Positions 32,482 through 34,768 of a stretch of 64,000 nt of DNA are shown piece after piece. Every line of letters begins with the position of its first letter. The first letter of the stretch is position 1. A program made the translations under genes and the position numbers. Below the pieces are notes generated by a model. That model saw only the letters and a list, made by a program, of their open reading frames with translations. It was not told the origin of the DNA and did no database searches. The DNA comes from Steroidobacter agaridevorans (GTDB taxonomy: Bacteria; Pseudomonadota; Gammaproteobacteria; Steroidobacterales; Steroidobacteraceae): positions 271,140-335,139 of the forward strand of contig NZ_BLJO01000005.1 in NCBI RefSeq assembly GCF_009932555.1. The letters run 5' to 3'.

Positions 32482-32594
32482 TGGGTTAGACGGTCGCAAG
32501 CAACCTCCGTCAACGTTGATCACTGAACGATCAATCCAACGCCCGAGCCATCTTCCGCCGCAGATGCGCGAAGTCAAGCCTCGGTTATCAAGAA

Positions 32595-32617
32595 GTTATC
32601 CACCGCTTCTGTGGATA
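32595..32617. repeat. inverted pair of DnaA-box-like 9-mers
   Basis: TTATCCACC (32595-32603) and, on the other strand, ATATCCACA (complement of TGTGGATAT at 32609-32617) each differ from the DnaA box TTATCCACA at one base. Together they form TATCCAC / GTGGATA arms around a 7-base centre, 50 bp upstream of the tRNA gene. Confidence 0.35.
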
Positions 32618-32666
32618 TCTGGGCGCTGGCGCGACTGACTGCTAGAATTGCGCGCTTCGACGATAT

Positions 32667-33043
32667 GGGCCTGTAGCACAACGGTTAGTGCAGGGGACTC
32701 ATCGATAAAAGGTGCCTTCGTGTGCGAAAGCCACGAAGTGGACGGGATGAATTCAGGGAACCCTTCCGCCTCACCCTCGCGGGGATGGCGTGGCAACCCT
32801 GAGCCAAGCCGGCGGTACACCGCCGGAAGGTGCAGAGACTACCTGAGGGCGGGTTCGATACCGGGACTTCGGTCCTGGCGACGAATCCGAGCGCCCTTGA
32901 TAACAGGCTGGAGCGTCCCGCACCCCACCGCTCGCTTCGATTTATTCGAAAGGCGCGGGTGAAGAGATAGTCCACTCCCTTTGGAAACATCGGGACCACA
33001 GTGAATCCCTTGGTTGCAGGTTCGAATCCTGCCGGGCCCACCA
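32667..33043 (+). tRNA. tRNA-Ile(CAU) interrupted by a group I intron
   Basis: The exons 32667-32702 and 33004-33043 join to a 76-nt cloverleaf with encoded CCA (33041-33043). The acceptor GGGCCTG pairs with CGGGCCC, the D stem is GCAC/GTGC, the anticodon stem is GGGGA/TCCCT with loop CTCATAA (anticodon CAT), and the T arm is GCAGG-TTCGAAT-CCTGC. The CTCATAATC-CTTGGT neighbourhood matches the minor tRNA-Ile that is converted by TilS to lysidine-34 and reads AUA. Elongator tRNA-Met is the alternative but fits less well. The intron lies between positions 36 and 37. Confidence 0.9.
32703..33003 (+). ncRNA. group I self-splicing intron (IC3-like) in the anticodon loop
   Basis: A 301-nt intron without an encoded protein. 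It starts after T36 and ends in G (33003), as group I introns require. The internal guide GTG (32712-32714) faces the exon end CAT. P2 is CTTCGTG/CACGAAG (32716-32722 with 32732-32738), capped by a GAAA loop. The conserved P element is AATTCAGGGAACCC (32750-32763), Q is CAACCCTGAGCCAAGC (32794-32809), R is GTGCAGAGACTACC (32830-32843) and S is AAGAGATAGTCCA (32962-32974). P9 with a GGAAA cap precedes the 3' splice site. The GTG guide, the P2 start and the position match the Azoarcus tRNA-Ile ribozyme plan. Confidence 0.92.
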
Positions 33044-33232
33044 TTTCGTTCTAGCGCGCGGTGCAGCGCGCATGAATCCAAAGTCGACCCCCGCTCGAAC
33101 TTTGACGGTTGGTTAGCCTCCCCCTCTTGAGTCAGAGCCGCGAACGTTCGTCCACGCGACGCCAGCCTCGCGTTCGGTTCCATCGTCCCGCGAGGCCGAG
33201 TCGGGCACGAACTACGCGGACACCTTTCGGCT

Positions 33233-34768
33233 ATGAACAAAAAAACGGCGCTGGCCCTGCTGGGCCTGAATGACAACAAGGATCGGGTCAGGGTGGCGCG
33301 GGCTTATGGCGAACGACTGGCTCTTCTCCAGGACAAGCTCATGTCGGCGCAGTCCGAGCAAGAGCGCAGCGCCCATGGCGTCGAACTCGCCGAGTTGGGC
33401 AAGGCTTATGAAGTGCTCACCGGCGCAGGCCACGGCGCGAAATCAAATGAAGCGTCTGCGACTGTTATGCGCACGGGCACGATGCAATCGCCTGCAGCAG
33501 ATGCGTTCGTTCGCATGGAGCCCGGCGCAGTCATCGCGGGTCGTCTGGAAATCGGCGCATTGCTCGGGGAAGGAGGCATGGGCTGCGTGTACGCTGCGCG
33601 CGATCGTCTGAAGGGTGAGGACGTCGCGATCAAAGTGTTGCGACACGACCTGCAATTCAGCAGCGCGGCAAAGGAGCGTTTCCTCGCCGAAGCAAAAGTT
33701 TCCTGCAGTCTGTCTCATCCCAACATCGTGCGCGTGCATGACGTCGGCATCGGCGGCGGCCTCTATTACCTGTCCATGGAGCGCTTGAAAGGTCACACGC
33801 TGCGCCACCAGATCGAGCAGTATCGCAAGAAGAATCGCGCCTTCCGTATTGCCGAGGTCACGGACATCGCGCATCAGCTGATCGATGCACTCGACTACGC
33901 GCATCGCTACATCATGCATCGGGACATCAAGCCGGAGAACATCTGGCTGGCCGAGGATGGCACGGTCAAGTTGATGGACTTCGGCATCGCTCGAGCGTCG
34001 AGCGACTCTCAGATGACGAAGACCGGCGTGACGCTCGGCACGGCTTACTACATGTCGCCGGAACAACGCATCGGCTCGAAGAAAGTGGACTGGCGCACCG
34101 ATCAGTATGCGCTCGGCGTGGTGTTGTATGAATTGTTGGCCGGCACCTTGCCGACCGGCGCGGTGCAGCCGATCGATACGATTCGTCGCGATCTGCCGAA
34201 ACGCTATGCGAAAGCGCTCATGCGAGCGATGTCGACATCGCCGCGGAAGCGTTTCCGATCGTATAACGAGATGCTGGCCGAGATGCAGTTGCCACGCTCG
34301 AGGCAGTCGTTTCGTTTTGCTGGCTTGCTGTTGATCGGCGCCGGAGTGGCGGCAGCGGGGTACGCGGTCTGGAATGTCCCCGATTGGCAAACGAAACTGT
34401 CAGCTGCTGTTATCGCGCTGAAAGCAGAGCTGGCGGGAACGGGCGCAGCGGAGGTGGGGGCTTCCGATGCCGGACGTGCAGAGGGGTTGATCCCTGTCGA
34501 CGTTCCGCCGCCGGAAGAAACATCGTGGGTCGCAACTGCCTTGACGGAGCCCGAGTCACAGTCGGCGTTGGAGACAGTGCCCGTGCCGGACTCGGAGTCA
34601 GAGCCGAAACTGGAATCGCAGTCGGACTCGGAGTCAGAGCCCGGCTTGGAGGCTCAGCCGCCCTCCGAGCCGGAACAATTGCCAAGCTCGGTGGCAGAGC
34701 CGGAGCCAGAGGCATCGCTGCAAGCTCCAGCCCTATCGACCGATGCAGTCAGCGCGACCCCGCCGTGA
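33233..34768 (+). CDS. membrane serine/threonine protein kinase with J-domain-like N-terminus
   Basis: A 511-residue Hanks-type kinase. Residues 5-65 form a helical segment ending KAYEVLTG that resembles a J domain without the HPD motif. The kinase has LGEGGMGCVY (111-120), K134, HRDIKPEN (229-236), DFG (249-251) and GTAYYMSPEQ, so it should be active. A single membrane helix spans about 362-380 (FAGLLLIGAGVAAAGYAVW). A serine/glutamate/proline-rich tail of about 110 residues with repeated SESEP units would face the periplasm. ATG at 33233. It stands alone between the tRNA gene and the convergent receptor gene. Confidence 0.88.
   Translation: MNKKTALALLGLNDNKDRVRVARAYGERLALLQDKLMSAQSEQERSAHGVELAELGKAYEVLTGAGHGAKSNEASATVMRTGTMQSPAADAFVRMEPGAVIAGRLEIGALLGEGGMGCVYAARDRLKGEDVAIKVLRHDLQFSSAAKERFLAEAKVSCSLSHPNIVRVHDVGIGGGLYYLSMERLKGHTLRHQIEQYRKKNRAFRIAEVTDIAHQLIDALDYAHRYIMHRDIKPENIWLAEDGTVKLMDFGIARASSDSQMTKTGVTLGTAYYMSPEQRIGSKKVDWRTDQYALGVVLYELLAGTLPTGAVQPIDTIRRDLPKRYAKALMRAMSTSPRKRFRSYNEMLAEMQLPRSRQSFRFAGLLLIGAGVAAAGYAVWNVPDWQTKLSAAVIALKAELAGTGAAEVGASDAGRAEGLIPVDVPPPEETSWVATALTEPESQSALETVPVPDSESEPKLESQSDSESEPGLEAQPPSEPEQLPSSVAEPEPEASLQAPALSTDAVSATPP

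Follow-up and report, generated by a model that had tools for sequence, protein, structure and literature searches.

A group I intron with a conserved P7.1-like arm in a split tRNA-Ile(CAU) gene of Steroidobacter agaridevorans

Positions 32667–33043 (+) of the window, by which we mean the whole 64,000-nt stretch of Steroidobacter agaridevorans DNA analysed here, contain a 76-nt tRNA with anticodon CAU into which a group I intron of 301 nt is inserted after U36. It is very probable that the locus is a precursor gene for tRNA-Ile2 (CAU), interrupted between U36 and A37 by a self-splicing intron that has no recognisable gene of its own and belongs to an arm-carrying lineage other than that of the Azoarcus intron; splicing, the role of the arm, lysidine formation and essentiality are what we infer from the sequence.

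Results

The split tRNA gene and its genomic context

When the two exons (Table 1) are joined, ARAGORN folds them as a CAU tRNA, a 76-nt cloverleaf with encoded CCA, just as the preliminary description had proposed; in the unjoined window the same program detects no tRNA. The complete cloverleaf with its CAU anticodon differs from both tRNA-Met genes of the organism, as expected of a tRNA-Ile2(CAU) host, an assignment for which we take features of the stems and of the variable loop to be diagnostic. This reading of the host leans also on tRNA-Ile2 introns in other bacteria (PMC8450103, excerpt).

The assembly comprises 8,008,609 bases in 26 contigs. An RF00005 search of it found 46 other tRNA genes, among them elongator-type and initiator-type tRNA-Met as separate, uninterrupted genes. 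No second copy of the joined tRNA, for which the preliminary description had suggested a search, is present among these 46 genes of the 97.3%-complete assembly: the joined sequence matches only its own two halves, plus a tRNA-Arg(CCU) at 73% identity (G000:C2:739586), and the nearest intact tRNA in the genome is a tRNA-Lys(CUU) (75%). A third CAU tRNA, of 72 nt and without CCA, is located on contig C8 (G000:C8:411457-411528; L062, L201), with genes for a Band_7 protein and an HNH protein nearby.

The genome also contains a TilS family match (167.8 bits, above the cut-off), and ATA accounts for 5 of the 183 isoleucine codons in seven Pfam-supported ORFs of the window. Because the tRNA was found only in split form in the assembly and a TilS match is present, splicing is probably needed to decode AUA, a rare but used codon, and the earlier single-copy argument holds within this assembly; the C8 CAU tRNA and the 97.3% completeness may leave room for an AUA backup. 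No sigma-70-like promoter was found in 32560-33240, by what is a weak test.

Table 1. Coordinates of the split tRNA gene, the intron and its structural elements within the window
Feature	Positions	Strand	Evidence
tRNA-Ile(CAU) 5′ exon	32667..32702	+	tRNA positions 1-36, the last three being the anticodon CAU; joined cloverleaf; 100% match to positions 1-36 of the uninterrupted copy in same-genus G009
Group I intron, 301 nt, terminal (omega) G	32703..33003	+	RF00028 63.9 bits, E 7e-14; alignment A1
Internal guide GUG pairing with exon CAU (P1, U.G at 5′ splice site)	32712..32714	+	37/37 paired, invariant in A1
P2 hairpin, GAAA tetraloop	32716..32738	+	9 pairs, each changed on both sides in some sequence; 90.7% of cells paired
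P3 5′ strand (partner 32914-32920)	32743..32749	+	drawn pairing; 98.8% of cells paired
P4 (32753-32758 with 32797-32802), encloses P5	32753..32802	+	drawn structure and pair counts
P6 and P6a	32803..32831	+	drawn structure and pair counts; P6a: 4 pairs changed on both sides
P7 5′ strand = element R (partner 32968-32972)	32837..32841	+	37/37 paired, invariant
J7/3 arm, P7.1 type: outer CCUG/CAGG, 3′ internal loop UGAUAA, inner AGGGC/GCCCU, lengthened here, C(UUCG)G hairpin cap	32842..32907	+	in 20 introns, covariation, model R1
P3 3′ strand	32914..32920	+	drawn structure and pair counts
P8	32921..32961	+	drawn structure and pair counts (five basal pairs tested)
P7 3′ strand = element S	32968..32972	+	drawn structure and pair counts
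P9, GAAA loop, two inner mismatches in the window intron	32977..32994	+	drawn structure and pair counts
tRNA-Ile(CAU) 3′ exon	33004..33043	+	tRNA positions 37-76, with CCA; joined cloverleaf; 100% match in G009

Identity and fold of the intron

The covariance-model search called for by the preliminary description, which had claimed a group I intron in tRNA-Ile(CAU), supports that claim: RF00028 matches 32690-32994 (+) over the full model (1-253) with 63.9 bits, above the gathering score of 50 (E 7e-14). Nothing else in the 64-kb window reaches the gathering threshold of any Rfam model, and RF00028 matches nowhere else in the genome. The intron combines a P1 with U.G at the 5′ splice site (37/37 aligned introns), a terminal G, a P3/P7 pseudoknot and a P4-P6 core, all of which are group I features, and P1 to P9 together with the pseudoknot can be drawn with standard pairs, the exception being the two unpaired mismatches inside P9. 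This drawing and the exon join also agree with the splice sites, the 301-nt insert, the GTG guide, the GAAA-capped P2 and the terminal G described before.

Among 37 aligned introns of type B (alignment A1; types A, B and C were set by the sequence after element R), 98.2% of 2219 cells are paired, against 34–45% when partners are slid by 1-3 columns, and 20 of the 60 pairs are changed on both sides; none of 500 shuffles came up to these values. Since the structure was drawn on the window sequence, the percentage paired favours itself, and the compensatory changes outweigh it as evidence; P1, P5, P6, P7 and the outer arm pairs are invariant in the 37-intron set, so that covariation there is silent on them. 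The minimum-energy fold differs in part from the drawn pairing, and the P3/P7 pseudoknot lies beyond such folding. A crude exact-string search found the 11-nt tetraloop-receptor motif in none (0) of 61 type B rows and in 3 of the 13 of type A, a result not counted as evidence either way.

A homing endonuclease within the intron was considered and rejected, as the 301 nt are largely taken up by the drawn helices. The sole ORF of at least 120 aa over the intron, 32839-33279 (-), extends beyond the 3′ exon and has no Pfam match.

Judged from its sequence, the intron most likely excises itself. In the predicted pathway, P1 would form in the folded transcript between the anticodon CAU and the GUG guide of the intron; a guanosine held in P7 would attack after U36, and the freed U36 would in turn attack after the terminal G, joining the exons. 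The mature tRNA would be expected to carry lysidine-34, made by TilS, and to read AUA. By analogy with P7.1/P7.2 in other introns, the arm described below is probably packed close to the site at P3/P7 where the guanosine binds.

A conserved arm between P7 and P3

Between P7 and the P3 3′ strand lies an arm, CCUG-A-GGGC...GCCC-UUGAUAA-CAGG, that the Rfam alignment treats as an unmodelled insertion. In the window intron it measures 66 nt, with further stems and a C(UUCG)G cap, as compared with ~30 nt in many relatives, and it accounts for the greater part of the additional R-to-S length. The stretch from R to S is 125 nt long in the window intron, 37-48 nt in 11 type A, 72-144 nt in 17 type B and 66-131 nt in 8 type C introns listed from named genomes. 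The preliminary description had seen an Azoarcus plan lengthened mostly between R and S: the greater length stands when set against the 11 Azoarcus-like introns, and the idea of a longer Azoarcus version gives way before the arm and the trees. The distal part of the arm region is indeed recent, since four same-genus carriers (G000, G002, G008 and G011) have 125-141 nt between R and S, as against 78-90 nt in G003, G010 and G001.

RF00028 matches were obtained in 28 of 60 genomes, own included, with filters losing some weak ones; 21 of the 28 are in tRNA-Ile(CAU), 20 joined automatically and one, L060, recognised by reading. Of the 21 introns, 20 have the arm; L060, which is of the short type, does not. 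Within type B, the five pairs of the inner helix are standard in 37/37 introns and three of them show both-sided exchange; this helix sets a purine-rich against a pyrimidine-rich strand, so that a slide of one still leaves two of the five pairs at 37/37, but no slid register keeps all five. The outer helix, invariant within type B, occurs across intron families as eight different 4-bp helices that are 4/4 Watson-Crick in 76 of 77 rows, where the remaining row (L255) was mis-parsed by the script and the window intron is counted twice, as L001 and L251. These 77 carry the arm among 90 introns examined across families, and the 13 without it are all type A. Exchanging sides between families, with nine representatives (the mis-parsed one included) and the same spacing freedom (3-6 nt) as for the real pairs, gave a mean of 2.24 pairs of 4 and perfect matches in 4 of 72 cases. 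A covariance model of the arm region (R1), built on 27 short examples with the window left out, scored the held-out window at 75.8 bits, type C introns at 22.7-31.6, one tRNA-Lys intron at 37.3 and type A introns at 22.8 at most.

No description of a P7.1-type arm in tRNA introns was found in the literature on P7.1 and tRNA, a scope outside which subscription papers mostly fall; the excerpts of PMC3984707, PMC4498298, PMC11915505, PMC1995217, PMC4227781, PMC11835236 and PMC6125680 describe no such arm in tRNA introns.

Distribution across genomes and host tRNAs

A pattern scan of named genomes returned at least 118 stretches; of the 118 listed, 36 yield a joined CAU tRNA and 82 are chance pattern matches or unjoinable. 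Named species that carry the intron include Lysobacter daejeonensis, Luteimonas aestuarii, Rhodanobacter fulvus and Dyella mobilis. Among the matches listed, 17 are type B (Lysobacter, Luteimonas, Rhodanobacter, Dyella and Gammaproteobacteria MAGs among them), 11 type A (Polynucleobacter, Methylotenera, Neisseriaceae, Gulbenkiania, Propionivibrio, a MAG labelled Akkermansia and others) and 8 type C (Burkholderiales/Comamonadaceae, a beta-proteobacterial MAG and Planctomycetota). Computed intron lengths at L095, L107, L116 and L121 are inflated by an extra upstream tRNA 5′ fragment.

The arm extends to introns of tRNA-Thr(UGU), tRNA-Lys(CUU) and one tRNA-Arg(UCU). Matches to R1 occur in 29 of 369 genomes of the class, 24 of them in tRNA-Ile(CAU) (own included), one in tRNA-Lys(CUU) and four in tRNA-Thr(UGU), the last being weak (31-35 bits); the tRNA-Thr introns (L257-L260) and those of tRNA-Lys (L256, plus L034 by reading) have the same arm type. 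Across 349 genomes of the phylum, the RF00028 search gave 29 with a match, 9 of these 29 loci being without an accepted tRNA join. Besides the window intron, the arm is found there in L262 and L267 (type C), and it is absent from four well-joined introns labelled tRNA-Leu(UAA) (L266, L275, L279 and L281). L262 interrupts the tRNA-Arg(UCU), and its join places the intron after U34, not U36.

Within the genus, six of 13 other genomes have the intron and five an uninterrupted gene; neither was found in G006 (75% complete) and G012 (97%). The uninterrupted gene of G009 is 100% identical to the joined exons. In both G009 and G004 the intact gene adjoins the same methyltransferase gene as in the window (protein identity 71% and 66%), which makes these two orthologous empty sites; G007 has flank DNA in common just upstream (window 32520-32621, 85%), and the available flanks of G013 and G005 matched the tRNA only.

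Other observations concern related loci. Group I introns in tRNA-Leu(UAA) occur in same-genus G008 and G013 (L077 and L057), G008 carrying the tRNA-Ile intron too. The short L060 (G024) is an Azoarcus-type tRNA-Ile intron within the family of the window organism that adjoins other type A introns in the tree, and a lateral transfer is possible. Two group I introns 46 bases apart (by model ends) are present at G020:C17 (L078), apparently in 23S rRNA as judged by eye. Partial tRNA-Ile(CAU) copies covering positions 30/32-76, and thus running across the intron site, occur in addition to the uninterrupted gene in G009 (G009:C1:249762-249806), G028 (G028:C40:54810-54854), G046, G048, G049, G050 and G059 and resemble attachment-site duplications; among the matches listed, intron carriers have only weaker 32-73 copies (83%; G020 and G024). 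As to the intron shielding an integration site, no integrase was present among 8 proteins from four stretches (G009, G024, G028 and G050), which include a transposase and an Abi_alpha protein. At L116, L107, L121 and L095, the complete, uninterrupted tRNA-Ile(CAU) gene is preceded by one or two copies of its 5′ part, which in L116 are followed by similar spacers, and a 1-44 fragment (G028:C40:63873-63916) is found near a complete tRNA-Ile(CAU) gene.

Two lineages at one tRNA site

With the arm cut out, a tree of 64 rows, including 25 hand-picked type B introns, separates into two sides with support 100/99: one comprises type A introns of tRNA-Ile, introns of tRNA-Leu(UAA) and three introns labelled tRNA-Arg (host unsettled), and the other comprises types B and C of tRNA-Ile together with the tRNA-Thr, tRNA-Lys and tRNA-Arg(UCU) introns. 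The sequence 5′ of the arm alone (63 rows, 134 columns) yields the same split, again at 100/99 and in 100% of bootstraps. The program gave a long-branch warning for the trees, whose midpoint root makes gain and loss of the arm indistinguishable; monophyly of type B has no support in the arm-less tree.

According to these trees, in which the Azoarcus lineage is represented by type A relatives including the Rhodocyclaceae MAG L137, a single nucleotide of a single tRNA is host to two deep lineages, and the window intron is placed in an arm-carrying lineage that is found in several tRNAs and is distinct from the Azoarcus lineage. In our evenly balanced judgement, the arm-carrying introns may form an undescribed deep subgroup among the group I introns of bacterial tRNAs: its members would have entered after U36 (Ile-CAU, Thr-UGU and Lys-CUU; after U34 in one Arg-UCU), they would have reached by convergence the tRNA-Ile2 nucleotide that the Azoarcus lineage also occupies, and the P7.1-type arm next to the guanosine site would be their hallmark.

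Alternative explanations

An enlarged direct relative of the Azoarcus-type tRNA-Ile intron, its extra sequence a late neutral expansion, would account for the common tRNA and insertion site, the similar core motifs and the recent growth of the distal part of the arm region in the four same-genus carriers. Such an origin is nevertheless improbable, given that every one of the 37 type B introns has the proximal arm, with covariation in its helices, and that trees from the 5′ part alone divide carriers from non-carriers as the arm-less trees do. Descent straight from the Azoarcus type was rejected on the trees without the arm.

Decay is a different matter: the gene might be a pseudogene whose intron no longer splices, and some other tRNA, for instance the one on C8, might then read AUA, a scenario into which the P9 mismatches and the very presence of a third CAU tRNA gene would fit. 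We regard it as highly improbable, because both exons are 100% identical to the intact G009 gene, the core pairs are intact within a structure constrained across relatives, and the C8 gene lacks CCA, shares 56% identity with the joined tRNA and, at pairs 4-69 and 5-68, shows A-U in place of the C-G of the split tRNA (as read from the tRNA folds). TilS prefers C-G at these two pairs, a preference for which a literature search gave no paper on point. More improbable still is that the host is an elongator or initiator tRNA-Met: ARAGORN does label CAU tRNAs as Met, but the separate and uninterrupted genes of both tRNA-Met types are only 70% and 64% identical to the joined tRNA. We accordingly retain the tRNA-Ile2 precursor gene with its arm-carrying intron as the preferred reading.

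Discussion

The intron is ordinary in kind, and its novelty lies in a lineage with a conserved P7.1-type arm, a claim limited by the scope of the literature. The Azoarcus intron is a standard model for minimal ribozymes, and a second lineage that occupies its site but is equipped with an additional covarying arm provides a comparison, made by nature, for the effect of such an arm on folding and speed. The split gene also explains how gammaproteobacterial genomes can look as if they had no tRNA-Ile2 gene, and tRNA-Thr(UGU) and tRNA-Lys(CUU) are added as hosts.

The intron of Azoarcus sp. BH72 resides in pre-tRNA-Ile(CAU) and belongs to group IC3. The window intron resembles it in host tRNA, insertion after CAU, GUG guide, GAAA loops of P2 and P9 and conserved P4/P6/P7 motifs (for Azoarcus, compare PMC3984707 and PMC4498298, excerpts). 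Whereas the Azoarcus intron is without the P7.1/7.2 extension between P7 and P3 that is also missing from the IC3 standard (PMC4498298, excerpt), the window intron has a conserved 66-nt arm at this place and sits on the other deep branch; by eye, its core motifs look like those of the Azoarcus/Synechococcus tRNA introns. IC3, in its usual drawing, does not accommodate the window lineage.

Apart from its P7.1/7.2 between P7 and P3, the td IA2 ribozyme is similar to the IC3 ribozymes Syn and Azo (PMC4498298, excerpt), and a P7-P3 extension is what the window intron shares with group IA2 (T4 td, Twort and IStrons; PMC4498298, PMC1995217 and PMC4227781, excerpts); in Twort, the P7.1/P7.2 elements stabilise the guanosine pocket (PMC1995217, excerpt). 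However, whereas IA2 introns have two hairpins, P7.1 and P7.2, and an extended P9 (PMC4227781, excerpt), the window intron, compared by description, has a single arm with an internal loop and only P9 after P7; S and what follows it in the intron come to only 37 nt, too few for P9.1/P9.2. The group I introns of tmRNA likewise interrupt a tRNA-like RNA, and a P7.1 region is named in them, but their site, again compared by description, is in the T-loop rather than the anticodon loop (PMC11915505, excerpt).

Among tRNA introns, the excerpt of PMC4033280 lists group I members in cyanobacteria and in alpha- and beta-proteobacteria, and tRNA-Ile2 group I introns in Acidovorax and Burkholderia are already known from the work on tRNAscan-SE 2.0 (PMC8450103, excerpt). 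The latter interrupt the same kind of host gene as the window intron, and the Burkholderiales type C introns found here, only a candidate match to those of PMC8450103, carry an arm at the same place; the window intron differs from them in outer-helix sequence, host lineage and length.
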